From NCBI GenBank assembly GCA_030694425.1, contig JAUXYI010000082.1, positions 1 to 33,830 on the forward strand: a stretch of 33,830 bases of DNA, written 5' to 3'. Made by a program: the position numbers and the translations under genes. This document shows, in pieces, positions 3 to 29,198 of this stretch. The notes beneath the pieces were generated by a model. The model made no database searches and was not told where the DNA came from. It was given only the letters and a program-made list of their open reading frames with translations. The DNA comes from Thermodesulfovibrionia bacterium. Its GTDB lineage: Bacteria; Nitrospirota; Thermodesulfovibrionia; UBA6902; BMS3Bbin08. Each line of letters starts with the position of its first letter. The stretch's first letter is position 1.

Positions 3-1472
3 TTACATTCTCAAGAAAAGGTTATCCCAAAGAAATCGCCGGAGATTCGTACCGAACCTTTAAAGTCCCAGTTTTTCTGCGGCTACTGTCATGTCCTGAC
101 ATATCCTAAAGTTATGAAGAAGGCGTATGAGTCATGGAAGATTGATAAACATAAAGATGTACCATGTGCAGATTGTCATTATCCACCCGAGAAAGCTGTA
201 ATCCCTGAGCATGAAAAGATTCCAACAACCGAAGAGGCTGCTTTAAAAAAGAAGACAGAATTTGAATTCATGAAGACTGAACTGGAGGCTCTCTCAAAGC
301 TTATAACTGTTTTAAATATGGAGGAGTCAATTCCAACAACAAAGCCCCCGATAGATGACAGAAGTTGCACTACCTCCAAGTGTCATCCGACAACCGGCAA
401 GGGCAAAGAAGGAGAGTTCTGGACCAAAAAAATCACTTTTACAGAATTTGTAAGAGAGGATAAGTCAAAAAGGGTAATTTCCTTTATACATAAGACTCAT
501 TTTGATAAGGAAAAATTGATAGAGGGTCAGGAGATGCACTGTGGCACCTGCCATAGACATGAGACAGAAAAAAAGCATCTTGAGGTCTCTAAAGAGAGCT
601 GTTATCTCTGCCACTTCAAGAATATTGCCCTCAATGAAAAACGGAGCAAATGCTCACTCTGCCATGAGGTTCCTACAAAGCCATTCAGAGAAGGAGAACC
701 CGAGCCCGGGAAAGTACTTGTTACACACCAAATCCTTGAAGAGAGAAAGGTATCATGCGCAGACTGCCACCTTCACATTGTAAAAGGCAAAGGTGAAATA
801 AAGCCGGAGAAGTGTCTTGACTGCCATGAAAATGAAAAGAATATTATGAAAGAGATGGAGAATAAAAAACTGATGCACAAGGAGCATGTGGCAAAACAGA
901 CTGCCTCCTGTTTTAACTGTCATGAGCCGATACAGCACAAATATCTTAAGGAATTTACATACGCCGATGCAGGGGTAAATATTTGCGTAGCCTGTCATTC
1001 AGAGCCGCATATTCAGCAGAAGCTTCTTATAGCAGGTGAGGGAGGCAAAGGCATAGAGAAGGCATTTCCCATTAAACATCATGATATGAAGACAAACTGC
1101 ATTGCCTGTCATACGCAAGAGGTTGCTGACATAAAAGGCAGGAAGGTAAAGAGGGGTGAAGTGAAGACCTGTGTGGCATGTCATACGGAAAATGAGGCAA
1201 AACTGGCAGAGAATTGGAAAGCCGATGTTGCAGATGAACTACAGAGTGCGAGGGAGATTGAGAAAAATGCAGTAGAGGCAGTTGAGAAAGCAAAAGGCAA
1301 AGCGCCTGAGAAGACCATTCAGAAGGCAATGGCGCTTTTAAAGGATGGGCAGGAGAACCTCAGACTTGTGGATATCGGAGGGGGTGTGCATAACAAAAAA
1401 TATGCCATGCTGGTAATTGAAACAGCGGTAGAAAACTTTGAGGGTGTAATTGAAGAGCTTAAGAAAAAATAA
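3..1472 (+). CDS. Multihaem c-type cytochrome (12 haem sites visible, 5' end outside window)
   Basis: Probable periplasmic electron-transfer cytochrome. The frame is open from the first bases of the window, so the gene starts upstream; the ATG at 114 is internal, because a CGYCH haem motif lies before it at 78-92. The visible part holds eleven CXXCH motifs (CGYCH, CADCH, CGTCH, CYLCH, CSLCH, CADCH, CLDCH, CFNCH, CVACH, CIACH, CVACH) and one CX4CH (C-TTSK-CH), giving twelve covalent haems. The first two motifs are spaced like the start of NapC/NirT-type quinol-oxidising cytochromes (haem motif, Tyr-x-Ser-x-Lys stretch, CXDCH). The last ~90 residues are haem-free, charged and helical. It lies about 230 bp upstream of the molybdoenzyme gene on the same strand. 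I infer that it links the quinone pool to that enzyme, since no NrfD-type membrane subunit is seen. The haem count is certain; the partner is inferred. Confidence 0.9.
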   Translation, partial: LHSQEKVIPKKSPEIRTEPLKSQFFCGYCHVLTYPKVMKKAYESWKIDKHKDVPCADCHYPPEKAVIPEHEKIPTTEEAALKKKTEFEFMKTELEALSKLITVLNMEESIPTTKPPIDDRSCTTSKCHPTTGKGKEGEFWTKKITFTEFVREDKSKRVISFIHKTHFDKEKLIEGQEMHCGTCHRHETEKKHLEVSKESCYLCHFKNIALNEKRSKCSLCHEVPTKPFREGEPEPGKVLVTHQILEERKVSCADCHLHIVKGKGEIKPEKCLDCHENEKNIMKEMENKKLMHKEHVAKQTASCFNCHEPIQHKYLKEFTYADAGVNICVACHSEPHIQQKLLIAGEGGKGIEKAFPIKHHDMKTNCIACHTQEVADIKGRKVKRGEVKTCVACHTENEAKLAENWKADVADELQSAREIEKNAVEAVEKAKGKAPEKTIQKAMALLKDGQENLRLVDIGGGVHNKKYAMLVIETAVENFEGVIEELKKK

Positions 1473-1703: not shown

Positions 1704-4268
1704 ATGAGAATTACCAGACGAGATTTTTTGCAGGCGACTGCAGCAGCAGGCGTACTGACTGCCATGGATGGACCAATATTCAATTCTCTTGCCTTTGGTG
1801 CTGAAGGCGGCGCTGAGGGAGGGAACTGGATACCATCAACCTGCCAGGGCTGCACCACATGGTGTCCCGTGGAGATTTTTGTTCAGAACGGCAGGGCAGT
1901 GAAAGTAAAGGGCAACCGTTATTCAAAACAGAATGACGGCTACGTATGTCCGAGAGGACATCTTGGCTTGCAGGAGGTTTATGACCCTGACAGGGTAAAG
2001 GTCCCGATGAAGAGGACCAATCCCCAGAAGGGCAGAGGGGTTGACCCAAAATTTGTGCCAATTTCATGGGACGAGGCATTAAACACTGTCGCCGATAAGA
2101 TGATGGAACTGAGGAATAACGGCGAGTCCGAAAAGTACATGCTCATGCGCGGCAGATATTCGTATATGAGGGATGTCATTTATGATGTGATGACCAAGGT
2201 ATACGGCTCACCGAACAACATATCCCACAGCTCCATATGCGCAGAGGCGGAGAACTTCGGCGCATATTATACAGAGGGAATGTGGGGTTACAGAGATTAC
2301 GATGTATCCAATTCCAAATATGTTGTGATATGGGGATGCGACCCTACAAACTCAAACAGGCTGGTCCCTGCAATCATAAAGAGGTTCGGTGATGTCCTTG
2401 ACAATGCAACAGTTGCAGTTGTCGATCCGAGAATGCAGACAACGGCGTCAAAGGCGCATGAATGGCTGCCGATAATACCCGGTCAGGACGGCGCACTCGC
2501 AACTGCGCTTGCACATGTAATCCTTACGGAAGGACTCTGGAGCAGGGAGTTTGTCGGAGATTTCAAAGATGGCAAGAATCAGTTCAAGGCCGGGCAGACA
2601 GTTGACGAAGCCGCTTTTGAAGAGAAGGAAACACATGGCATTGTGAAGTGGTGGAATATTGAGCTTAAGGACAGGACGCCAGAGTGGGCAGCCCCTCTTA
2701 CAGGCATCCCTAAGGAGCAGATAGTAAGGGTTGCAAAGGGAATGGGCAAGGCTGCGCCTAATGTTGTGGTATGGCTTGGCCCCGGCGCCGCAATGCAGGT
2801 AAGGGGCGGCTACAGCGCGATGGCGGTACATGCATTGAACGGACTGCTTGGAGCGGTTGACAACGTGGGCGGCACCCTCGGAGGAGCAAAACAGGCCGCA
2901 AACAAAATGCCGAAGATCGACAAATATCTGGATGAAGTGGCCCAAAAGCACGGCAAAATGAAAAAGATAGACCAGAGGGGAACAAAGGCAATGCCTGCCA
3001 TGAATGAAGGGAAGTCAGGCGGCGGTTCTATTGCGAATAATGTGGCTACCGGCATGCTGGAGAAAAACCCTTACGAGATCAAGATGGCCATCGGCTACAT
3101 GAACAACTTTGCCTTCTCCTGCACCGGCGCGCAGAGATGGGAAAAGGCTATGGAGCAGTTGCCTTTCTTCGTGCATATCACAACTAATGCGGCTGAGATG
3201 ACGCAGTATGCAGACATAGTCCTTCCTGCAAAGATTACCATGTTTGAGAAATGGGCGTATGTAAAGCAGAAACAGAACAGGTATGCTCATGTTTCGCTTA
3301 TACAGCCCGTTATCAAGCCGATGTGGGATGTCAAGGCAGATGAAACAGAGATCCCTTTCCTGATAGCCGAAAAGCTTAAAGAGAGGGGTTTTTCCAATCT
3401 TTATGACTGCCTGGTCAATGAGTTCAAAGATCCCGAGACCGGTAATGCACCGAAGACAGCTGAGGAGTTCGGTCTTTATTCGGTAAAATACTACACTGCA
3501 CCGGCATGGTCGGCCGAGGGGGCAAAACTCGGCGACACGATCAACGGCTGGCAGGAATATACTCAGAAGGGCGTGTGGAATTCAAAACCTTATGAGTACA
3601 AGAAAAGATGGGGCGGCAAGTTTGGGAAGGATGAGGAAAAAGACGGCAAGAAGACAACTACAGGAACGGTAACTCATAAGTTTGAGTTTTACAGCGAGAC
3701 GCTGAAGAAGGCTCTGACCGGCCACGCGGAGAAACATAAAACCGATGTGGACGACATCCTTAATGTCTGTAACTATACAGCCAAAGGAGAACTCGCCTTC
3801 GTGCCTCACTATGAGCCCCCGTTCAGGCATGGAAATGAGAAAGAGTATCCGTTCACTTTTATTGATTACAAGTCAAGGCTCAATAGAGAAGGCAGGAGCC
3901 AGAACCTGCCGTGGTACTATGAGTTTAAGAAAGTTGATTTCGGCGATGAGAGCCATGAGGATGTCATCCAAATTAACCCTGCCGATGCCTCAAGGCTCGG
4001 TATAAAAAATGGAGATATGGCCAAAGTAACCTCTGTGACAGGGAGTTATCTGATAAAGGCCAAGCTCTGGGAGGGTATCCGTCCGGGCACGGTGGCGAAG
4101 TGTTACGGCCAGGGCCACTGGGCCTATGGGAAAACTGCTGCGAAGGAGTTCGGCAAGACCCCGAGGGGCGTAAACAACAACGAGATTATGCCCTTTGATA
4201 CAGAGCGTCTTAGCGGCGCCAATGTAAGAAACGGCGGCTTTACGGGAGTGAAAATACAAAAAGCGTAA
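1704..4268 (+). CDS. arrA: Molybdopterin oxidoreductase, probable respiratory arsenate reductase catalytic subunit (ArrA-type)
   Basis: 854-residue periplasmic molybdoenzyme of the DMSO-reductase superfamily. It starts with a twin-arginine signal (TRRDF at 4-8, then a hydrophobic stretch). A [4Fe-4S] motif follows (C47-x2-C50-x3-C54, then C82). The Mo ligand should be C179 in SSICAEAEN. Closest remembered family is ArrA: the blocks FVGDF (~283) and RTPEW (~324) used to recognise arrA genes are both present and correctly spaced, and with an offset of 14 the ArrA active-site residues I recall (R165, Y166, H189, C193, Y210) map to R151, Y152, H175, C179, Y196. The position of ArrA K198 is N184 here. 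The start has a clear site (AAAGGAGG, 5 nt before ATG). ArrB and a TorD chaperone follow. Arsenite-oxidising ArxA or another PsrA/PhsA-like activity cannot be excluded; the superfamily is certain, the substrate about two-thirds likely. Confidence 0.75.
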   Translation: MRITRRDFLQATAAAGVLTAMDGPIFNSLAFGAEGGAEGGNWIPSTCQGCTTWCPVEIFVQNGRAVKVKGNRYSKQNDGYVCPRGHLGLQEVYDPDRVKVPMKRTNPQKGRGVDPKFVPISWDEALNTVADKMMELRNNGESEKYMLMRGRYSYMRDVIYDVMTKVYGSPNNISHSSICAEAENFGAYYTEGMWGYRDYDVSNSKYVVIWGCDPTNSNRLVPAIIKRFGDVLDNATVAVVDPRMQTTASKAHEWLPIIPGQDGALATALAHVILTEGLWSREFVGDFKDGKNQFKAGQTVDEAAFEEKETHGIVKWWNIELKDRTPEWAAPLTGIPKEQIVRVAKGMGKAAPNVVVWLGPGAAMQVRGGYSAMAVHALNGLLGAVDNVGGTLGGAKQAANKMPKIDKYLDEVAQKHGKMKKIDQRGTKAMPAMNEGKSGGGSIANNVATGMLEKNPYEIKMAIGYMNNFAFSCTGAQRWEKAMEQLPFFVHITTNAAEMTQYADIVLPAKITMFEKWAYVKQKQNRYAHVSLIQPVIKPMWDVKADETEIPFLIAEKLKERGFSNLYDCLVNEFKDPETGNAPKTAEEFGLYSVKYYTAPAWSAEGAKLGDTINGWQEYTQKGVWNSKPYEYKKRWGGKFGKDEEKDGKKTTTGTVTHKFEFYSETLKKALTGHAEKHKTDVDDILNVCNYTAKGELAFVPHYEPPFRHGNEKEYPFTFIDYKSRLNREGRSQNLPWYYEFKKVDFGDESHEDVIQINPADASRLGIKNGDMAKVTSVTGSYLIKAKLWEGIRPGTVAKCYGQGHWAYGKTAAKEFGKTPRGVNNNEIMPFDTERLSGANVRNGGFTGVKIQKA

Positions 4269-4334: not shown

Positions 4335-5180
4335 ATGGCGAATAAACAAATGGCAATGGTCATAGATTTACAAAAATGTGTTGGGTGTGGTGCGTGTGCG
4401 CTGGCATGTAAGACAGAAAACAACACGCAGATGAGGGCAAGAGGACAGACGTTCAACTGGGCTGATTTTGTTTATAAGACGGAAGGGACATTCCCTAATG
4501 TGAAGTTTACGGCAATACCTGTCCGCTGTAACCACTGCTCTGACCCTGCATGTGTGAAGCCGTGTCCGGAACCCAAGGCGCTGTACAAATCAGAAGAAGG
4601 CCTTACACTGTATAACAATAAATACTGCATTCAATGCAAGAAATGTCAGGATGAATGCCCTTACAGTGCAAGGGATATAGACAAAGAGGGCGACGCTTAC
4701 AGCATAATAAGCTTTAATGATGTTGGCAAGGACACGCATGAATTTTACAAGGACAAGACAGAATTGATAGCGGGTTGCACCTCTTCGCCTGCTGAGGTTG
4801 CAAGCAAGGCAGGCGGCGTTCCGCCGTACAAGAATGCGTATAAGTTTAAGGATACTACTGCGCCTCAGAATCCGAAACAGTCTAAGGGCAAAGGAGAAGT
4901 TATTGATGTAAGGAAAGACGGATGGGTTGAGAAGTGCCACTTCTGCGTTCACAGGATGAGAGATGGTTTGAAACCCTATTGTGTTGAGTCCTGCCCTGCA
5001 AATGCACGCATTGTAGGAGACATTAATGACCCGAACAGTGAGGTCAGTCAGCTTATCAAGAAACATAAGCCCAGTAGGCTAAAGAACAACAAAGGCGAAT
5101 TCCTGAAAGACGGAGAAGACGGCACCAAACCAAATGTATACTACATAAGGAGCTTCAAGGCAGAGGCAAAGGTAGCGTAA
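4335..5180 (+). CDS. arrB: Four-cluster [4Fe-4S] ferredoxin subunit (ArrB-type)
   Basis: 281-residue electron-transfer subunit of the preceding molybdoenzyme. Four cluster-binding Cys groups are visible in the usual order: C-VG-C-GA-C-ALA-C near residue 15, C-NH-C-SDPA-C-VKP-C near 64, C-IQ-C-KK-C-QDE-C near 97, and C-HF-C-VHRM with a later C-VES-CP near 208-227. This is the DmsB/PsrB/ArrB layout. There is no signal peptide, as expected if it is co-exported with the Tat-carrying catalytic subunit. It is longer than the ArrB proteins I recall (about 230-240 residues); the extra is a low-complexity insert around residues 140-200. The ATG is preceded by AAAGGAGG with 8 nt spacing. It would pass electrons between the multihaem cytochrome and the molybdenum site. 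The ferredoxin assignment is firm; the Arr label depends on the neighbour. Confidence 0.85.
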   Translation: MANKQMAMVIDLQKCVGCGACALACKTENNTQMRARGQTFNWADFVYKTEGTFPNVKFTAIPVRCNHCSDPACVKPCPEPKALYKSEEGLTLYNNKYCIQCKKCQDECPYSARDIDKEGDAYSIISFNDVGKDTHEFYKDKTELIAGCTSSPAEVASKAGGVPPYKNAYKFKDTTAPQNPKQSKGKGEVIDVRKDGWVEKCHFCVHRMRDGLKPYCVESCPANARIVGDINDPNSEVSQLIKKHKPSRLKNNKGEFLKDGEDGTKPNVYYIRSFKAEAKVA

Positions 5181-5388: not shown

Positions 5389-6039
5389 ATGAACATCAAT
5401 GACCTAATTCTACACGAAAAGACGCGGGAAAACTGTTTCCGGTTTCTCGCAGCCTGCTTTTACCTGCCGCAGAAAAACTTATTCGCAGAGAAAAACCTCT
5501 TAGTGAACCTCACGAAGTATCTGCAGGAGGTATGTCCTGATGCAGCGGTATTTTCCTCAGAGATGGAAAAGAACTTCCTTCAATTCAGCAACGAAGAGCT
5601 GTCCGTTGAATACTCTAAGCTTTTTGTAGGACCTTTTGAGCTTTTAGCTCCTCCATACGGTTCGGTATATCTTGAGGGCAGAAGGGTTATGGGTGATTCC
5701 ACCATGGAGGCCATAAAGGTATATCAGAAGGAAGGGCTTTCAAGGAGTGATGATTTTAAGGACCTCCCTGACCATATTGCAGTGGAACTGGAATTCATGA
5801 GCTATCTGATTTACAAAGAGATAAAGGCTCTTGAGAGTTCCGATTTTAAAACCACAGAGGAGTTTATTGACAAACAGGAAGATTTTCTGAACCGGTTTCT
5901 CAGGCGGTGGGTTTCACCATTCTGTGAGAAAATAAAAGAAGGTACCAATAACGGTTTCTATACCGCCCTCGCTGATTGTGTATCAACCTTTGTTTTGTAT
6001 TCTAACACCGAAAAAGAAGCTTTATTGCCTAAAACTTAA
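5389..6039 (+). CDS. TorD/DmsD-type molybdoenzyme chaperone (ArrD-like)
   Basis: 216-residue, soluble, helical protein of the TorD/NarJ chaperone family, which binds the signal peptide and apo-form of a molybdoenzyme before Tat export. The family hallmark is visible around residue 78-96: E-Y-S-K-L-F-V-G-P followed by PPYGSVY. Length is typical. The gene lies downstream of arrB on the same strand, separated by a 200-bp repeat cluster, so its client is almost certainly the arrA-like product. The start ATG is preceded only by an A-rich stretch (AAAAAGGCAAAA), with a weak ribosome-binding site. Such a dedicated chaperone is common in arr, arx and psr-type clusters, so it does not decide the substrate. 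Confidence 0.88.
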   Translation: MNINDLILHEKTRENCFRFLAACFYLPQKNLFAEKNLLVNLTKYLQEVCPDAAVFSSEMEKNFLQFSNEELSVEYSKLFVGPFELLAPPYGSVYLEGRRVMGDSTMEAIKVYQKEGLSRSDDFKDLPDHIAVELEFMSYLIYKEIKALESSDFKTTEEFIDKQEDFLNRFLRRWVSPFCEKIKEGTNNGFYTALADCVSTFVLYSNTEKEALLPKT

Positions 6040-6461: not shown

Positions 6462-6788
6462 CTAACTATAGAAGATGGGTTTAAACGCGCAGGTCAAGAA
6501 AGGCTTTTTAGAAATTCTATAGGGGTCAGAACCTCTTCTTCTCGTCCAATCCATCGCCTCCTTAAGATTTTTAAATTCGGGTTTACTCCTTTTAAGGGTA
6601 TTTTCTATATCTGTCCATGCGGTATCTATTGGTCGTAGATCTGACTTCTCCAGATTAGCTGTAGTAACAGGTAATATAAGTGCAAATGGTTTACCGCGTA
6701 AAGTTATAAGCACTTTTCTCCCTTTGGAAACTGTTCTTATTGCTTCACCTGTTTTGTTCTTTAATTCTTTTGCTGCCATTGTCTTCAC
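6462..6788 (-). CDS. Phd/YefM-family antitoxin, orphan
   Basis: 108 residues, GTG start at 6788 behind a strong GGAGGGGG site. The first ~45 residues fit the Phd/YefM DNA-binding fold (M-A-A-K-E-L-K-N-K-T-G-E-A-I, then KVLITLRGKPFALILP). Such proteins repress their own operon and neutralise a toxin. The later part (FKNLKEAMDWTRRRGSDPYRI) is typical of antitoxin tails. No toxin gene follows: downstream is a repeat block, and the last ~15 residues appear to run into it, so a toxin may have been lost. Alternatively this is a solitary antitoxin-like regulator. Confidence 0.75.
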   Translation of the reverse strand: MKTMAAKELKNKTGEAIRTVSKGRKVLITLRGKPFALILPVTTANLEKSDLRPIDTAWTDIENTLKRSKPEFKNLKEAMDWTRRRGSDPYRISKKPFLTCAFKPIFYS

Positions 6789-6924: not shown

Positions 6925-7860
6925 ATGGTATTAAAACGTTTAAGAATACTGATTATTATCGGTTTTGTGCTCATATCAATGGCTGGTTTGATTAGCTGTA
7001 GTCGTGAGCAAGAGCCTAAAAAGATAATCTTTGAAGAAGATATTGTATTAGAAGCAGAGGAAGAATTACCTGAAAAAAATCCTATTAGAATTGCAATTGG
7101 TTCTATGATGACTCCAAAAGAAGGATATGCTTACTATAAACATCTCCTAAATTATATCGGAGAAAAAATGGGGAGACCTGTAAAACTTATTGATAGAGAG
7201 AAATATGCTGAGATTATCGCTTTATTAAAAACAGGCTATCTTGATATTGCTTTTGTATGCAGTAAGCCTTATGTTGACGGGCATAAAGAATTTGGATTGG
7301 AACTTTTGGTTGTGCCCCAGGTTAATGGTAAGACGGAATACTACTCATATATAATAGTGCCTGTTGATAGCCCTGTGAAAACCTTTGAAGAACTGAGGGG
7401 TAAAACCTTTGCCTTTACTGACCCTGGCTCTAACACCGGCAAGTTAGTTCCTGCCCATATGCTTTTTAAAATGAATGAGACCCCGGATTCTTTCTTTAAA
7501 GAATATATCTTTACCTATGACCATGATAAGTCAATTAAGGCAGTTGCCAAAAAAATAGTTGATGGAGCATCTGTGGACAGTCTTATATGGGATTACTATA
7601 ATAAATTTAATCCTGAATTGACCTCAAAAACCAAAATTATCTTAAAATCTCCACCGTATGGCATCACGCCGGTTGTAGTTCCACCCGGGCTTGACCCCGA
7701 AATAAAAAACAAGCTAAGAAAGATATTTTTAGATATCCATAAGGATGAAGAAGGCAAAAAGATACTTGAAGGAATGATGATTGATAAGTTTGTTGCAGGA
7801 AATGATGCCTCTTATAATTCCATACGAGGGATAATTGCCTCGATGGAGCCAAGGAAATAG
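6925..7860 (+). CDS. PhnD-like periplasmic oxyanion-binding lipoprotein (AioX/ArrX-type sensor candidate)
   Basis: 311 residues. The N-terminus has a hydrophobic segment and lipobox (L-I-S-C25), so it should be a lipoprotein facing the periplasm. The rest is a PhnD/phosphonate-phosphite ABC-type binding fold (IRIAIGSMMTPKEGYAYYKHL; DIAFVCSKPYVDG; KTFEELRGKTFAFTDPGSNTG). No transporter genes follow; instead the next gene, touching it, is a membrane sensor kinase. This gene pair, close to an Arr-type cluster, matches the arrangement of the arsenic-oxyanion sensors AioX/ArxX/ArrX with their kinases. C112 in AFVCSKPY is near where AioX has its arsenite-binding Cys108, by memory of that family. 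The lipoprotein/PhnD fold is clear; the ligand is inferred and could be phosphite, phosphate or another oxyanion. Confidence 0.8.
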   Translation: MVLKRLRILIIIGFVLISMAGLISCSREQEPKKIIFEEDIVLEAEEELPEKNPIRIAIGSMMTPKEGYAYYKHLLNYIGEKMGRPVKLIDREKYAEIIALLKTGYLDIAFVCSKPYVDGHKEFGLELLVVPQVNGKTEYYSYIIVPVDSPVKTFEELRGKTFAFTDPGSNTGKLVPAHMLFKMNETPDSFFKEYIFTYDHDKSIKAVAKKIVDGASVDSLIWDYYNKFNPELTSKTKIILKSPPYGITPVVVPPGLDPEIKNKLRKIFLDIHKDEEGKKILEGMMIDKFVAGNDASYNSIRGIIASMEPRK

Positions 7861-9714
7861 GTGATTATGCGTTTTATTAGCTTACGGACTAAATTTCTAA
7901 TCGGAACGTTAGGAGTAATATTATTTTTGGGCGTGTTATTAATAATTTTAGTGAAAACTATAATGACCCAACGACTTGAAAGTGAACTTCAAAAAAGAGG
8001 GGTGTATATAGCTAAGAATATTGCTTCGGAAAGCATTGACAGTATAGTAACAGAGAACTTTTTAAATCTCAACTTACTCATTCTTGAGCATAAAGAAATT
8101 GATGAAGACATTGAATATATTTTTATTTTAGATGAGAAAGGCAAGGTTGTTGCTCACACATTTGAAAAAAAATTTCCGGCGGCTTTAAAAGAAGCAAACA
8201 TTGTTAAGTCAGGTCAGGCATATAATATCCAACCCTTAATTATGGGAGAAACGCACATACTTGATATAGCTTACCCAATATTAAAAGGTGAATTAGGAGT
8301 TTTACATTTAGGGATTTCTGAAGAACCCATTATGGGCGCTATTTCTGCTATAACTCAAACGCTCATGTTGATAATTATTGGTTTTTTAGTCTTGGAAGGT
8401 GTCATAACGGTTATTACAGCTACCGCAGTAACAAAGCCGCTTACAAAACTTATACACAGTGCAAAAGAAATAGGCAGCGGCAACCTGGAGCATAAGGTTA
8501 GCGTCAAAACAAATGACGAAATCGGTCAACTATCAGGTGCATTTAATAAGATGACAGAAGATTTAAGAGCAACTACTGTTAAACGTGATGAACTGACTCG
8601 TGAGGTTAATGAACGCAGGAAGGCTGAGGAAGCGCTTAAGATTTCCGAGAAGAAATACCGGGATCTTGTAGATAATGCCCTTGTAGGAATATTTAAAGGC
8701 AATCTTAATGGTGATATCCATTATGTAAATGATGCATTGTTAAAGATTTTTGAGTTTGAGTCAGCTGAAGAAATGATTGGGACCGGTGTTCTGCCAGGAT
8801 ATAAAAACCCAGGGGACAGTGAGATTTTAATTGGAAATCTTAAAAGAACAGGTAAAGTTAACAATTTAGAGTTTGAAGCGCTTACAAAAAAAGGAGAAAC
8901 TAAAAATATACTTTTAAGTGCAACACTTGATGAGGATGTCATATCAGGAATGGTTATGGACATTACTGAACACAAGCAAACTGAGAAGGCACTGCAGAGG
9001 GCAGAGCATTTAAAAATGCTTGGTGAACTGGTAATAGGACTTGCGCAGGAGATTAGAAATCCGCTTGCAGGTATCCAGCTGTCAGTAGAAACACTTTCTA
9101 AGGAGGTATTCACATCAGAAGAGGATAGAGAAATTATATTAAAAATAATTAATGAGATTAAACGAATTGATTTGTTGCTAAAGAACCTTCTTGATTTTGC
9201 CAGACCATCTAAACCCCAACTCACACCTATAAATATGAATGATATTCTTGATAAAACCATTGCCTTTTCACTGAGACACCCCTCTTTCTCATCAAATACC
9301 GTAACAGCAATAAATGTTTTGAAGAATTTTGACAAAAATCTTCCAGAAGTAATAGCTGACCCTATACAACTACAACAGGCATTCATGAATATGATACTCA
9401 ATGCAATAGATGCCATGCAGGATGGAGGGACATTAACTGTAAAGACATCATATGATGCAGAGCTAAACGTTATACAAATTGCAATCTCTGACACTGGCAA
9501 GGGGATAGATGAAAAAGTTAGAGACAGAATCTTCCAGCCGTTTTTTACAACCAAGGCAAGACACAGGGGGATGGGGTTGGCTATTACTAAACGACTTATT
9601 GAGGAGCATGGAGGTGACATATGTGTAGAAAGCAGCCCGGGTAAAGGAACAACGTTTATTGCCCTGTTCCCCATTAAACAAGTGAGAAAGGAACAGATAA
9701 CATGCTTGGTATAA
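7861..9714 (+). CDS. Membrane sensor histidine kinase with Gln at the phosphoacceptor site
   Basis: 617 residues. TM helix at ~10-33, periplasmic sensor region ~34-160, TM helix ~163-188, HAMP ~190-240, a PAS domain ~262-375, a HisKA-type dimerisation helix ~380-440 and an HATPase domain to the end. The N box (NMILNAIDAM), G1 (DTGKGID), F box (FQPFFTTK) and G2 (GMGLAI) are all present. The H box reads G-L-A-Q396-E-I-R-N-P, where kinases have G-L-A-H-E-I-R-N-P, so the phosphoacceptor His is missing (CAG at 9046-9048). GTG 7861 directly follows the lipoprotein stop; ATG 7867 (MRFISLRTKF) is the more likely start. No response regulator is in the window. The domain order is firm; whether it still signals is open. 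Confidence 0.88.
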   Translation: MIMRFISLRTKFLIGTLGVILFLGVLLIILVKTIMTQRLESELQKRGVYIAKNIASESIDSIVTENFLNLNLLILEHKEIDEDIEYIFILDEKGKVVAHTFEKKFPAALKEANIVKSGQAYNIQPLIMGETHILDIAYPILKGELGVLHLGISEEPIMGAISAITQTLMLIIIGFLVLEGVITVITATAVTKPLTKLIHSAKEIGSGNLEHKVSVKTNDEIGQLSGAFNKMTEDLRATTVKRDELTREVNERRKAEEALKISEKKYRDLVDNALVGIFKGNLNGDIHYVNDALLKIFEFESAEEMIGTGVLPGYKNPGDSEILIGNLKRTGKVNNLEFEALTKKGETKNILLSATLDEDVISGMVMDITEHKQTEKALQRAEHLKMLGELVIGLAQEIRNPLAGIQLSVETLSKEVFTSEEDREIILKIINEIKRIDLLLKNLLDFARPSKPQLTPINMNDILDKTIAFSLRHPSFSSNTVTAINVLKNFDKNLPEVIADPIQLQQAFMNMILNAIDAMQDGGTLTVKTSYDAELNVIQIAISDTGKGIDEKVRDRIFQPFFTTKARHRGMGLAITKRLIEEHGGDICVESSPGKGTTFIALFPIKQVRKEQITCLV

Positions 9715-13484: not shown

Positions 13485-13622
13485 ATGACGGCTGAACACG
13501 AAAAACTGAAAAAAATTTCAATCTCCATTGAAGAAGAAGTCCTTGAGGCCATTGAGGAACTTGCAGGAAAATATTCAAAAGAAACAGGGCAGAAATGGTC
13601 CAAAGGCGCTATTAACCCCTGA
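13485..13622 (+). CDS. Truncated ribbon-helix-helix-like protein (45 residues)
   Basis: Short frame MTAEHEKLKKISISIEEEVL... ending in TGA at 13620-13622. The segment KKISISIEEEVLEAIEELA looks like the strand plus helix of a CopG/RHH DNA-binding domain, and KWSKGAI suggests the start of the second helix, where it stops. The end overlaps the last codons of the converging VapC-like gene by 11 bp, so the RHH gene may have been cut by insertion of that toxin-antitoxin pair. Not certain to be expressed. Confidence 0.35.
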   Translation: MTAEHEKLKKISISIEEEVLEAIEELAGKYSKETGQKWSKGAINP

Positions 13623-14034
13623 CCCTCTTAAACCCTGCCTGTTCAAAATGTAGGTCGTTTGTAAGGACTTCGGTTATTCTGAGTTCTTTCATTACAATAA
13701 AAGATGACAGATCAAAAAATGAAATTTCTGGTTTGTCAGAATATTTCTTGCTTAATTGCCAAGCCTTCTCCCATCTTACCTCATCAACCCTCTCAAGAAT
13801 AATCATATTATTCTTTGTGGCCTCAAGGATATTGTCCATAAAAATTATTACCCCTTTAGGCTCGGTCTTGGCTCTGAGAAGTGTAATTGTTTCTGCAAGA
13901 ACATAATCGGTTGTTACAGGGATACAACCCGTCAGGATAGATGCCTTATAAAACTCCGAGACTTTTTCGTGGTGGTCGTCATTTTTGTGGGCAATGGCAA
14001 TCCATCCCCATGTATCAAAGAATATTTTTTTCAC
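13612..14034 (-). CDS. PIN-domain toxin (VapC-type ribonuclease)
   Basis: 140 residues. PIN fold metal-dependent ribonuclease. The first acidic residue is D8 (K-K-I-F-F-D-T-W-G-W-I-A), then E in DYVLAETITLL (~49) and the C-terminal D in ISFFDLSSFIVMKEL and TNDLHFEQAGF, which together make the acidic Mg2+ site. The start is GTG at 14034, overlapping the TGA of the upstream antitoxin gene (GTGA), the usual coupling of antitoxin and toxin. Target RNA unknown. Confidence 0.9.
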   Translation of the reverse strand: MKKIFFDTWGWIAIAHKNDDHHEKVSEFYKASILTGCIPVTTDYVLAETITLLRAKTEPKGVIIFMDNILEATKNNMIILERVDEVRWEKAWQLSKKYSDKPEISFFDLSSFIVMKELRITEVLTNDLHFEQAGFKRVRG

Positions 14035-14297
14035 CGCTTATCTATACCGTAGAGATAGAAGTCATGCTTATCAGCAAGGTCTTTGGGTCCGCCCTTACAG
14101 GCTCCAACTATTGAAAGAAGTTTTTTTGCTGATTTGTCTTTAATAGAAATCTCTTTTTTCTTTTCCTTTGTCTGAAGAAAAAAATCAATAGCATTTCTAA
14201 TAAGTTCGGCGGTTGAGACTTTAGAATCCTGATGAATTTTTTCTAAAGCATCCTTTTGGTACTCTTCTATAAACATTTGAAACCTTACTTTGCCCAT
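14031..14297 (-). CDS. RHH-type antitoxin partner of the PIN toxin
   Basis: 88 residues. N-terminal ribbon-helix-helix region (KVRFQMFIEEYQKDALEKIHQ, STAELIRNAIDFFLQ at ~28-42) should bind operator DNA; the charged C-terminal half would wrap the toxin. It is the first gene of a two-gene operon with the PIN toxin, overlapping it by 4 nt. ATG at 14297 has a GGGGGCGCAAATG context with a usable ribosome-binding site. Upstream are AT-rich palindromic bits (GTATATACACATAT) that may be the autoregulatory operator. Confidence 0.82.
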   Translation of the reverse strand: MGKVRFQMFIEEYQKDALEKIHQDSKVSTAELIRNAIDFFLQTKEKKKEISIKDKSAKKLLSIVGACKGGPKDLADKHDFYLYGIDKR

Positions 14298-18335: not shown

Positions 18336-18694
18336 TGAATTAGAATAGTTCCTTACAAATAATATATAAAACTGAAGATTTATTTTACATATAATTATAC
18401 CTAACCAAAACAAAAGATATAAAAATCAACAAGTTAATAGAGTAGCATAATTTTTGCTTTAAATATATTTGGTTAAAATTTTTGGAAAGTTTTTTGATTT
18501 TTTAATCCCTTATAAGGCTTGTTTTCCCCTGAAGAGAATAGCTGTCTAAAGAAAAGGGGGTGGTTTCAATTAAAAAGGAAAAGGCTTTATTTTTAAACGT
18601 AAAAACCTTTAATAAACAGGAGGTGATGAACCGTATGTGTTTCAGGAAGGTATTTGCTGTAACCGCATTACAAGAAATTATACGAAGAGGAGGT

Positions 18695-20593
18695 ATGAAA
18701 AATATAAGTATTAAGCTTAGTATTTTGGTAATTATGATATTGCTTGCATTCGGCGCAGGCAATGCATTGGCTGCGCAAAGCCCACAGATTCCGCTTCCTG
18801 GCAGCGCTATCCCACAGTTTGTCAGCCCGTTGCCGACCCTGAAAATCGCACCCCAGAACAGCACCATAACCACTGTGTTTGGCAATGTACCTCTCACTAT
18901 AAGAATGTGCGAGTTCCAGGTAAATATGCTGCCGGCTCCATTACCTCTAACCTGGGTGTGGGGATATCTTGTGGATCCGACAGGAACAAGCACATGCGCC
19001 CAACTAATCGATCTGCATTTCGACGGGACTATCAATGGCATTTCAGGACCCCTTGACACCTCCATTGGCCCTGTGATTGTTAACCAGCGAGGAGGTGCTT
19101 CAACCGACATAACTTTTGTAAACGATTTGGGGTTCGCTTCCACGACCAATCTTTTAGCCTATAAGTACTCCACTGACCAGACCCTGCACTGGGCTGACCC
19201 GCTTGCGCCACAGGTCGACGGGTCCGTGAACTTGTGCAACATGAAGGTCGACATGTGCATGTTCTGGAATCCCGATACCTTAACGTTTCAGTGCTATCCT
19301 CATCCCAGTGATCCTTGCGCTCAAAACTACAGTGGCCCAATTCCTGCGGTTGTTCACATTCACGGCGGTGATGTGCCGCCAGAACTTGACGGAGGGCCGG
19401 ATGCATGGTTCACCAGCGACGGGCTGAATAAGGGACATAAGTACTACTCTTTTCCAGGCGCTCCAGCCAATGGAGCTCTCTATAAGTACCCAAACAGACA
19501 GGAAGCAGCTCCAGTCTGGTTTCATGACCATACTTTGGGCGCTACCCGCCTGAATGTTATCATGGGAATGGCAGGCGCCTATTACATCTATGACCCTGCC
19601 ATCATCCCGGTTGCTGCTGGCGGAACATGTCTTACAGACTGCCTGCCTGCTAACCTGCAACCGCTAAATGAGGTTATACTAGTTGCCATACAGGACCGCA
19701 TGTTTGATACTAACGGACAACTCTTTATGCCCGCAGACAGCGCCGGAGGCATTCTCTGGAGTCTAAATCCCGAACATCCCTATTGGGTGCCGGAATTCGA
19801 AGGCGACGTCAATATCGTCAATGGGAAGGCGTGGCCATTTATCAATGTTCAACCAAAGCGCTACCGTTTCTTATTCCTGAATGGTAACACAGCCCGCGCC
19901 TATGAGATGTTTCTCGTAAACCCGGTAACCAAGGTCATGGGTCCACCCATGTATGTGATCGGCACTGATGGCGGTTATCTGGATACCCCTGTCAAGATAG
20001 ACCCAAACCTCGGACAGAAGCTGGTCATGCAGCCCGGCGAGCGCTATGAGGTTATCATAGACTTTGCTGGTTATGCAGGAACCAATCTTATATTGCGCAA
20101 CGTTGCAAAGCATCCCTTTCCAAACGGTGTGGCACCACAAGGTTCCACTATTGGCCGTATAATGCAGGTCAGAGTCAGTGCTACACCTGTCATAGACAAC
20201 AGCTACGACCCTGTCAGCGGAACGCCACTGCGCACTGGTACCCAGACAATCCAGCGTCTGGTCAATCCTGTTGCAGGGATGCTGGCACCTGGCGTAATTG
20301 TGAATAAGAGGCGTCAGATTACACTCAATGAGATTATGGGTATGCCGATGACGGCTATTGATCCAGTCACTGGTTTGTTGACGGCTTATCCCGGTGGACC
20401 TCTGGAGGTACTACTAAACAACACAAAGTGGGCAGGTGTAGCACCGGGCGGCACTCCGAGACCAGACTTCACGCCCATCACAGTGAACGGGGTCACAACT
20501 TATTTCTCCGAGTTACCACAAGAGGGCGACACCGAGGTATGGGAGATTGTCAACCTGACTGCTGATGCTCACCCTATCCACACACTCACCTGA
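18695..20593 (+). pseudogene. Multicopper oxidase, 5' part (frameshifted in copper motif 3)
   Basis: Secreted multicopper oxidase of the CotA/bilirubin-oxidase type. ATG 18695 gives a clean Sec signal peptide (MKNISIKLSILVIMILLAFG...ALA-AQ); the frame is open back to 18560 but that extension puts ~45 residues before the signal. Copper motif 1 is H-I-H-G-G (19355-19369) and motif 2 W-F-H-D-H (~19517-19531). Motif 3 begins H-P-I-H, then the frame runs into TGA at 20591. Two extra bases (an AC unit in CCACACACTCACC) near 20582 explain the break: without them the sequence reads H-P-I-H-T-H-L-T-Q-F-Q-L and continues into the next frame. Oxidation of metals such as Mn(II) or Cu(I), or of phenolics, is possible; substrate unknown. 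Confidence 0.85.
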
Positions 20594-21081
20594 CACAGTT
20601 CCAGCTCATGAACCGGCAGAAATTCGACGTCAAGAAGTACAATGCTGTCTATAATGCTGCCTTTCTTGGCGGTGTGTACATCCCAGCTTATGGACCACCC
20701 CTGAATTACAACACAGGTAATCCTGTCGCCCTTGGTGGCAACCCGGATGTCACAGGAACTGTGAAAGGTCCGGTAATACCGCCTGATCCAAAAGAAGCCG
20801 GGTGGAAGGACACAGTAATCGCGTATCCTGGTCAGGTGACCCGTTTTGTTGTGCGTTATGCGCCGACAGACATACCTACGACTGCACCCCCTTCAATGCT
20901 GTACTACTCATTTGATCCCAGTGGCAGCAGCGGCGGTGTTCCTTTTGAGTACGGCTATGTATGGCACTGTCACATTGTTGACCATGAGGATAACGAGATG
21001 ATGAGACCTAATGTTGTGCCGCTGAATCCATTAGCACCTATTCCGAGCTTGAGACCCTTACAGAGGGGTATAGACTATTAA
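20584..21081 (+). pseudogene. Multicopper oxidase, 3' part
   Basis: Continuation of the oxidase in the shifted frame, from T-H-L-T-Q-F-Q-L-M-N at 20584; an ATG at 20608 is internal to the original protein. It contains the type 1/type 3 copper motif W-H-C-H-I-V-D-H-E-D-N-E-M-M (20962-21003) with the axial Met, so all copper ligands are intact across the two frames. Together the parts give about 795 residues. The preserved ligands and a strong terminator downstream suggest a recent lesion or a sequencing error in the AC run rather than an old pseudogene. Confidence 0.85.
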
Positions 21082-26290: not shown

Positions 26291-28003
26291 TTAAACAACC
26301 TTTATCCTTGTTATTTCGTTTCCATCAGGGTCAACTACATGGACAGCACATGCCATGCATGGGTCAAACGAATGAATCGTCCTTAATATCTCAACAGGTT
26401 TTTCAGGGTCAGCTACAGGAGTTCCAATAAGTGCGGATTCATACGGCCCTCTCTGGTCGCTGGCATCCCTTGGAGAACCATTCCATGTGCCCGGGACAAC
26501 GCACTGGTAATTTTCAATCTTTTTATCCTTGATTTTTACCCAGTGTCCAAGCGCGCCCCTTGGAGCCTCATGGAGACCATACCCTTTTGCCTCAGCAGGC
26601 CACTCAGATGGATCCCACTTTTCACCGCTGTGGATTTTCAAATCGCCTTTCTTCATATTAGCAGCAAGCTGATTTATCCACTCCGGTATCATCTCAGCAG
26701 TAACAAGCGTTTCAATACCCCTTGCAGCAACCCTTCCGAGTGTTGAGAACAATGCAGCAGGACCAACGCCTAATTTCTTAAGAACGCTGTTTACAACCTC
26801 CTGCACCCTCTTATGTCCGGAGCCATAGGCAACAAGCATTCTTGAGAGCGGGCCAACCTCCATGGATTTATTCTCATAACGAGGGGCTTTCAGCCATGAA
26901 TATTTTCCGTCTGTATTGAGATATTCATACGGCGGGTTTGGTCCAGTATATTTATAATTTGTCTCGCCGTCCCATGGATGCCTTGATTTATCATTGCCGT
27001 CAGAATACTCATACCATGAGTGTGTAACATATTCTGTTACCTTGGCGTGGTCAACTTTATGAACTGTTGACAGGTCTTTGTTGAGTATAATACCGCGAGG
27101 CAGCCATAGGTTTTCAGTATTGCTCACTGTATCATTCGGGAACTCTCCATATGCGAGGAAATTGCCAACGCCTGCTCCATAACCTGCCCAATCCTTATAA
27201 AAAGATGCTATTGCAAGCAGGTCCGGAATATATACCTTTTCCACAAATTCCTTAGCTATTTCAGCAAGCCCTGACATAAAGGCAATGCTTCCTGCATTTA
27301 ATGCGTTCTGGCTGTCAGGGTCAATAGGTATGGACATGCCGCCAACTAAGTATGTCTGTGCATGAGGATTTTTTGCACCAAGCAGAGCCTGGATTTTTAT
27401 GACCTCTCTCTGCCACTCAAGCGCTTCAAGATAATGTGCAACTGCCATGAGATTAGCCTCTGGAGGGAGTTTGTACGCAGGGTGTCCCCAGTAAGCATTT
27501 GCAAATGGACCGAGTTGTCCAGCCCCTACAAAAGATTTCAGCTTATCCTGAATACCTTTGAAATAGGCTGTGCTTGAGTTATGCCAGTCAGATATAGATT
27601 GTGCAAGCGCCGATGTCTTTGCCGGGTCTGCTTTTAAGGCGCTTACTATATCTACCCAGTCAAGCGCATGCAGATGATAAAAATGGACTACATGGTCCTG
27701 AACGTATTGAATCCCTGTAATTAGATTTCTTATAATCCTTGCGTTATCAGGGATTGTTATTCCCAAGGCATCTTCGACCGCTCTCACCGAGGCGGTTGCG
27801 TGAACCGTAGTTCAAACCCCTCATATGCGCTGCGTAAAAGCCCACGCATCCCTTGGGTCTCTGCCTTTGAGAATTATCTCAATTCCCCTGAACATTGTAC
27901 TTGAGCTCCACGCATCTGTAACCTTTCCGTTTTCAATCTGTGCCTCAATCCTGAGATGTCCTTCAATCCTTGTAATAGGGTCAATAACTATTTTTTTTGC
28001 CAA
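26291..28003 (-). CDS. hyaB: [NiFe] hydrogenase large subunit with two in-frame UGA codons at the L1 cysteines (putative selenoprotein)
   Basis: 571-codon frame for a group 1 uptake-type large subunit. Start is TTG 28003 behind GGGAGGTG; a stop lies just upstream in frame. Residues 1-60 ([21 protein letters not shown]...[14 protein letters not shown]) and the part after 27811 ([18 protein letters not shown]...) are continuous homology in one frame. Between them the L1 motif, normally R-I-C-G-V-C, reads R-I-UGA61-G-V-UGA64 (27823-27821 and 27814-27812). L2 near the end is D-P-C-M-A-C-A-V-H with both Cys. Insertion of Sec at both UGA would give a full protein whose nickel has two Sec and two Cys ligands. 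The part from GTG 27787 on cannot be an enzyme by itself, as it lacks L1. Homology is certain; readthrough is inferred from position, frame and the adjacent hairpin. Confidence 0.93.
27777..27796 (-). promoter_or_regulatory. Candidate bacterial SECIS hairpin in hyaB
   Basis: On the hyaB strand ACCGC-CTC, loop GGT, GAG-(A)-GCGGT: eight base pairs with one bulged A and a 3-nt loop starting with G and containing GU. The loop starts 23 nt after the second UGA and 32 nt after the first, inside the 16-37-nt spacing reported for bacterial SECIS elements, so one hairpin could serve both codons. A second hairpin just upstream (TGAAC-TACG-GTTCA, 27814-27801) contains the second UGA itself and could compete. 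Confidence 0.55.
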
Positions 28004-28109
28004 TGCTATTCACCTCCCTTTATTTTTTTGCCACTAATAAACACGAATTTACACAAAGAAAGTTTTGTGTTTCTTCTTATTCGTGTTATTCGTGTTGATT
28101 CGTGGCTAA

Positions 28110-29198
28110 TCACTCTTCTTCCTTTTTGGGCGACAATGCCCTGCCAATTCCATGAATTAAAATACCTGCGGCTGTTGCAGCAACAAGCCCTGCGCCGACC
28201 TTATCAGCAGTGGTTTCTATACTTACGCCAGGGACGCTTGGAAGCCTTCTGTAAAATGGGGTCATTGTATCCCAGAAATTAGGCTCTGCACATCCAATGC
28301 ATCCGTGGCCTGCCTGAACAGGCCAGCTTGTGCCTTCATTATATTTAACAGTAGGGCAGTTTTTGAAGGTCTCGGGGCCCTTACAGCCCATTTCATAAAG
28401 GCACCATCCTTGTCTGTGAGCTTCATCGCCCCACTGTCTTACAAATTGTCCGGCGTCAAAATGCGCCCTTCTCTCGCAATTATCATGAATCCTTTTGCCA
28501 TAAGCAAAATACGGCCTGCCGAATTTGTCTGTGTTAGGGAGTGAGCCGAATGTCAGGAAGTGAACAACACACGCAGTAATGTTTTCAACATTCACAGGAC
28601 AGCCCGGCAAATTAATAACTGTTGCATTAGGCACTGCCTCTTTGACACCTACAGCGCCTGTGGGATTGGGGTTTGCAGCAGGTATTCCGCCGTAAGCAGC
28701 ACAGGTGCCTACAGCAATTGTAGCAAGTGCATTGCCGCAGACCTCCTTTGCAATATCAACAGCGGACTTGCCGCTAATACAGCAATAAACGCCGCCGTCC
28801 TTCATAGGAATAGAGCCTTCTACAACTACAAGATAGTTACCTTTCTGATTTTTAACCACATCCATGAGTGACTTTTCTGCCTGATGACCTGCAGGCGCCA
28901 TTATTGTTTCATGATAATCAACTGACAGGATATCAAGAATAATCTTAGCTGCTGTGGGTTTAGTTGCCCTTAAAAGGGCTTCAGTGTTGCCTGCGCAATC
29001 CTGAAATTCAAGCCACACAAGGTAAGGTTTTTTACCGCTTATAGCCTCAGCTATTTTCGGGATAAATGAAGCAGGTAAAGCCAGTATAGCAGCCATCGTA
29101 GCGCAGAACTTCATGAAATCCCTGCGGGAGACCCCTTTCTGGCTTAGAGGCTCCATTGATTCTGCAATTTTATGCAGAGCATCATCTGAAAAATTCAT
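28110..29198 (-). CDS. hyaA: [NiFe] hydrogenase small subunit, Tat-exported
   Basis: 362 residues. Twin-arginine signal S-R-R-D-F-M-K-F near 24-31, mature part with three Fe-S clusters, and a C-terminal membrane anchor (VGAGLVAATAAGILIHGIG). Distal cluster: H238, C241, C266, C272. Medial cluster: C281, C300, C303 (GHGCIGC). Proximal cluster: C68, C166 (G-T-C-A-A-Y-G-G), C200 (L-P-G-C-P-V-N); the fourth ligand, normally Cys in E-C-T-x-C-T-E, is N71 (D-C-A-G-N-T-E). Electrons run from the Ni site in HyaB through these clusters to HyaC. ATG 29198 follows AAGGGGGTG. A MITE-like element sits directly upstream in the leader. The gap to hyaB (28004-28109) holds an imperfect inverted repeat around ACGAATTTAC / GATTCGTGG. 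Confidence 0.95.
   Translation of the reverse strand: MNFSDDALHKIAESMEPLSQKGVSRRDFMKFCATMAAILALPASFIPKIAEAISGKKPYLVWLEFQDCAGNTEALLRATKPTAAKIILDILSVDYHETIMAPAGHQAEKSLMDVVKNQKGNYLVVVEGSIPMKDGGVYCCISGKSAVDIAKEVCGNALATIAVGTCAAYGGIPAANPNPTGAVGVKEAVPNATVINLPGCPVNVENITACVVHFLTFGSLPNTDKFGRPYFAYGKRIHDNCERRAHFDAGQFVRQWGDEAHRQGWCLYEMGCKGPETFKNCPTVKYNEGTSWPVQAGHGCIGCAEPNFWDTMTPFYRRLPSVPGVSIETTADKVGAGLVAATAAGILIHGIGRALSPKKEEE

Follow-up and report, generated by a model that had tools for sequence, protein, structure and literature searches.

A sensor kinase gene in the 33,830-nt stretch of DNA analysed here (hereafter the window) carries glutamine in place of the phosphoacceptor histidine, and is best, if only tentatively, explained as encoding a histidine pseudokinase comparable to DivL. 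As judged from its residues, the protein would be devoid of autokinase activity and, if still functional, probably signals through contact with a partner protein and not by transfer of phosphate. Action by another route, as an allosteric or phosphatase partner, had been proposed in the first, sequence-only reading of this DNA and was the leading reading in the follow-up. The evidence counted for a pseudokinase comprises the glutamine codon shared with a sister copy, constraint on the dimerization and histidine phosphotransfer (DHp) region, a lesion of the G2 box also shared with the sister, the pattern of missing regulator genes, and the conserved pocket of the adjacent binding protein. Counted against it are the broken state of the sister copy, a G2 lesion that plain decay would equally produce, and the lack of a regulator beside a close relative that has kept its histidine (L107). 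The features concerned are listed in Table 1.

Table 1. Location of the sensor pair and of the neighbouring operon in the window
Feature	Position	Strand	Remarks
Multihaem c-type cytochrome	114..1472	+	cluster head
ArrA-like molybdoenzyme	1704..4268	+	best solved relative ArrA 6cz7, 979.6 bits
ArrB-like iron-sulfur subunit	4335..5180	+	NCBIfam ArrB 244 bits, cut-off 450
TorD-like chaperone	5389..6039	+	upstream of sensor pair
ArrX/AioX-type periplasmic oxyanion-binding protein	6925..7860	+	PF12974 209.9 bits; adjoins candidate pseudokinase
Candidate histidine pseudokinase ORF	7861..9714	+	617 aa; sCache_3_2, HAMP, PAS, HisKA, HATPase_c (Pfam)
Sensor half	7966..8970	+	sCache_3_2 residues 36-164, HAMP 187-237, PAS_9 275-370 (Pfam)
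HisKA (DHp) domain	9019..9207	+	HExxN motif: E397, N400 retained
Gln396 codon CAG, phosphoacceptor His site of H box	9046..9048	+	family alignment
HATPase_c domain	9358..9678	+	N, G1, F boxes retained, G2 not
Degenerate G2 box, residues 568-572 HRGMG	9562..9576	+	most relatives GTGLG or GTGMG

The H box of the kinase reads GLAQEIRNP, with Gln396 at the phosphoacceptor position, as had been noticed from the letters alone. Across 42 aligned family cores, this site is occupied by His in 36, Glu in four and Gln in two; these cores are what remained of 50 kinase ORFs after eight had been left out before counting (five from other kinase groups, two truncated or partial, both with His and an adjacent regulator, and one duplicate fragment of the sister). 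The same genome yielded 19 HisKA domains, of which 18 carry His here, the window kinase being the sole exception. A search for further Gln orthologues in GTDB r220 contigs, in the whole order (47 genomes), in the class (230) and in a sample of the phylum (395) returned the sister copy only, while ten phylum-level matches (L220-L229) all combine His with a GTGLGL box. The earlier proposal to look for Gln in orthologues that follow PhnD-like proteins thus receives a mixed answer: Gln is kept in the single close orthologue, more distant orthologues carry His, and Glu occurs in a related group. The HisKA and HATPase_c domains were matched in Pfam at 51.9 bits (cut-off 26.9) and 93.6 bits (cut-off 26.4), respectively, and PAS_9 at 26.2 bits, just below its 27-bit cut-off. 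The GTG start codon (7861-7869 region) reads GGG in the sister copy, which makes the ATG at 7867 (codon 3) the likelier one, and the true start of the kinase may therefore lie there.

The closest relative (L037, on contig G009:C12, JACQXB010000029.1) belongs to a Nitrospirae metagenome-assembled genome (MAG), and its DNA is 94% identical to that of the window (1744 of 1854 aligned bases). It carries the identical CAG, and since the two copies stand at a dS of 0.18, the Gln codon is most simply taken to predate their split, so that the very recent single-base change envisaged at the outset is not borne out. Nor is a sequencing or assembly error at 9046-9048, the other early suggestion, a credible source of the codon: an independent contig at only 94% DNA identity has the same CAG, and a second lesion, at residue 569 in the G2 box, is also common to both copies, and this explanation was discarded.

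As both copies carry Gln, their whole divergence postdates the loss of His, and it can be used to ask whether the protein remained under constraint. The dN/dS ratio (Nei-Gojobori) for the kinase as a whole is 0.162; for the DHp region (residues 376-450) it is 0.03, the latter value resting on ten differences between only two Gln sequences, one nonsynonymous and nine synonymous, a split with a binomial P of 1.6e-5 under neutrality. Judging from these substitutions, purifying selection on the phosphoacceptor domain persisted after the loss of His. The pair formed by the binding protein and the kinase has, on the evidence of its reading frames, since been lost in the sister genome: the kinase gene there has a nonsense mutation at codon 279 and Val for Phe in its F box, and the binding-protein gene has four frameshifting deletions (10, 10, 11 and 1 nt). 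With both genes broken, that genome at least can do without the pair. The 29-kb contig G009:C12 (L037 / L105) differs from the genome of the window by a dS of 0.06-0.34, versus 1.1-2.4 for G009 core genes, which suggests recent lateral transfer or mis-binning, either of which would fit its dS.

The ATP-binding boxes, initially described as all kept, proved to be so in part only. Of these boxes, N, G1 and F are retained, whereas G2 is lost through the replacement of Gly568 and Thr569, and reads HRGMGL in the window and RRGLGL in the sister, versus the GTGLGL usual in relatives. Residue 568 is Gly in all 40 other aligned rows, His in the window and Arg in the sister; residue 569 is Arg in both Gln copies and Thr in 31 of the 36 His-bearing relatives. 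The lesion is therefore present in both Gln copies and in none of the 40 other rows, its codons being CAC-AGG in the window and CGC-AGG in the sister, with GGN-ACN in four His-bearing relatives inspected. The claim that all ATP boxes are kept was discarded on this ground, and with it falls the argument that the kinase is for that reason not simply decayed, G2 being replaced in both Gln copies and the sister being a pseudogene. Two elements required for ordinary autophosphorylation chemistry, the phosphoacceptor His and the G2 loop, are thus altered, and their joint loss makes autophosphorylation by the window kinase very unlikely.

A further peculiarity concerns the regulator. The remark that no response regulator is adjacent was borne out, as an in-house receiver profile found none in the 33.8-kb window. 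Elsewhere in the phylum, a common unit comprises a PhnD-like protein, a histidine kinase and a regulator of the NtrC type, some 463 residues long. In three other genomes (L190, L191 and L192), the arr-like operon is preceded by a set of X protein, His-bearing kinase and regulator, so that a regulator encoded beside X and S, a feature of ArrXSR systems, is present in these loci and absent in the window. The genome of the window itself holds intact X-S-R sets (C48:52.6-56.5 kb and C9), and a kinase at C48:25.8 kb with a regulator and no X protein, which is 55% identical to the window kinase over the core and 58% in the DHp region. Counted over 41 readable rows (L105 was left out, its contig ending there), an adjacent regulator is absent from six of six His-less rows versus two of 35 His rows (Fisher 6e-6). 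Once relatedness is taken into account, this link amounts to one independent contrast on supported branches (two if the best tree is used) and loses its significance; L107, likewise without adjacent regulator, is the nearest His form. The association between the loss of His and a missing regulator gene is, at the level of these gene neighbourhoods, a pattern and not proof. Sigma-54-like sites (33 found versus 27.9 expected) were uninformative as a pointer to a regulated operon.

The four Glu-bearing relatives form two pairs, L108/L109 (GLAEDIKN) and L110/L111 (GLSEGIKN), from two genera and four genomes. Like the window kinase, they have no phosphoacceptor His, adjoin a gene for a periplasmic binding protein and have no adjacent regulator; they differ in having Glu and not Gln, an intact G2 box, a PBP_like_2 protein as partner and, in the two that were scanned, multiple PAS domains with no Cache or HAMP match. 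Their HisKA domains show dN/dS ratios of 0.055 and 0.07 within the pairs. The six His-less copies represent two or three lineages: on the tree, Gln and Glu require two changes from His, although the AU test did not reject one common loss (p-AU 0.305). This distribution suggests repeated loss of His within a single protein family.

What could such a protein sense? The sequence-only reading had taken the neighbouring gene product for a PhnD-like protein; it is not a transport PhnD, and its closest counterparts are the arsenic-oxyanion sensors ArrX (best solved relative, 6x6b, E 3.9e-55) and AioX, which comes next. Six of seven AioX pocket residues, as given in PMC5908839, are identical, including Cys106, and Ser163 is replaced by Thr; closest relative and pocket residues together place the protein in the AioX/ArxX/ArrX subfamily. 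The ArrA-like enzyme scores 1135 bits with the NCBIfam ArrA model, below the cut-off of 1600, which none of the 47 genomes of the order passes, so that its substrate and direction can only be inferred. Arsenate is, from this ArrAB-like neighbourhood, the likeliest oxyanion. A lone gene (6462-6788, minus strand), which separates the arr-like genes from the sensor pair, matches the PhdYeFM antitoxin family below threshold, at 24.6 bits (cut-off 29.8). Farther along the window, two consecutive ORFs (18560-21081, plus strand) resemble a single multicopper oxidase interrupted close to its C-terminal copper site; two genes on the minus strand (26291-29198) look like those for the small and the large subunit of a hydrogenase, the ORF for the large one starting late, with its N-terminal part seemingly out of frame; and two small overlapping genes (13612-14297, minus strand) resemble a VapBC-type toxin-antitoxin pair.

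The binding protein and the sensor half of the kinase most resemble a pair of genes on contig C37 of the same genome (L186:5862-9743). The first encodes the nearest paralogue of the binding protein (409 bits), and the second a 975-aa protein with sCache_3_2, HAMP, PAS and HD_5 domains, in which the HD domain takes the place of the kinase. As the window sensor half is nearest to this protein, the window kinase is probably a chimera of a C37-type sensor half and a PhnD-linked kinase core.

In the mechanism that we propose, the binding protein would detect the oxyanion and dock on the sCache domain, thereby altering the DHp dimer, whose output would be delivered by protein contact. Two forms of contact may be envisaged: pairing with a His-bearing paralogue encoded in the same genome, or holding the regulator of such paralogues, as DivL does with DivK~P. 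Candidate partners are the C48:25.8 kb kinase with its NtrC-type regulator, and the ArrX-kinase-regulator set at C48:54 kb. Rewiring of this sensor would probably have been accompanied by the joint loss of His and of the regulator gene that belonged with it.

The main rival is a sensor system in decay, in which the regulator was lost first, followed by His and G2, and whose window copy is merely still open. It is possible, though on the whole we doubt it. The nonsense codon and the four deletions in the sister pair, the disappearance of the G2 box from both Gln copies, and L107, a close His form that is already without an adjacent regulator, are all what decay would leave behind. However, the low dN/dS of the kinase, and of its DHp region in particular, was accumulated entirely after the loss of His, the window kinase runs through 617 codons with neither stop nor frameshift, and its binding protein retains the pocket. 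Measured against what characterizes a DivL-type protein, the catalytic residues are replaced, constraint is seen in two sequences, and the sister copy is broken.

Two other readings would leave the protein some catalytic role. A sensor acting as a phosphatase only, which would strip phosphate from a regulator belonging to a paralogous system by means of E397 and N400 (the companions of His in the HExxN motif), is compatible with the presence of both residues in the two Gln copies and of N400 in all four Glu copies, but two of these four have Gly at the acidic position. In HK853, moreover, the phosphoacceptor His is itself active in the phosphatase reaction and the H260A substitution reduces it, according to PMC5727384, and the GXGXG loop, damaged here, binds an ADP cofactor that regulates phosphatase activity, as stated in PMC5897336, which makes phosphatase-only action less likely; DivL, too, is described in PMC4211667 as having neither kinase nor phosphatase activity, while still binding DivK~P. 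Altogether we regard this reading as improbable. More improbable still is a half-dead heterodimer, in which the ATP-binding domain of the window kinase would phosphorylate the His of a paralogue: the preserved N, G1 and F boxes, and a DHp region so similar to that of the C48:25.8 kb kinase, would permit a mixed dimer, but the degenerate G2 should weaken ATP handling. If the pseudokinase reading holds, a broader scenario may be considered, which we find unlikely as a whole: binding-protein-coupled kinases of Nitrospirota would repeatedly have become pseudokinases, losing His together with the regulator gene, and would form a class of inputs that respond to a ligand, here an arsenic oxyanion, and adjust paralogous two-component systems without phosphorylating.

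Several known systems offer points of comparison. As in ArrXSR, AioXSR and ArxXSR, an X-type binding protein and a membrane sensor kinase are encoded side by side next to an ArrAB-like operon, but in the window S has neither His nor an intact G2 box, and R is missing; its kinase core also belongs to a PhnD-linked group different from that of the arr-adjacent kinases of L190-L192 (HKcore 89-141 bits). The ChrS variant of Corynebacterium glutamicum likewise associates an inactive kinase with a functional paralogue; strains with this pseudokinase tolerate more heme than strains lacking ChrS altogether, HrrS being the paralogue through which the output passes (PMC9491836), but the variant results from a laboratory-evolved frameshift in the CA domain and keeps His, while the window case is natural. 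With respect to DivL of Caulobacter crescentus, an orthologous relationship was considered and discarded, since DivL (4q20, E 1.4e-16) is one of many weaker PDB matches, outranked by ZraS (9jfj, E 7.4e-36) and others. The two proteins nevertheless share a replaced His, the retention of HisKA and HATPase_c, and an expected poor handling of ATP. Nor is the regulator of DivL known to be encoded adjacent to it. They differ in that DivL has Tyr at the His site and senses DivK~P, whereas the window protein has Gln, a degenerate G2 box, a periplasmic sensor and a dedicated oxyanion-binding protein. No published account of a pseudokinase that has a periplasmic binding protein as its partner emerged from a literature search limited for the most part to non-subscription journals. 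In the literature cited here, DivL is the natural histidine pseudokinase; next to it, the window system would represent a small pseudokinase with a definable chemical input, a binding protein of known class and His-bearing relatives in sister genomes, in which it would be possible to test what signalling remains without phosphotransfer, and how pseudokinases arise.
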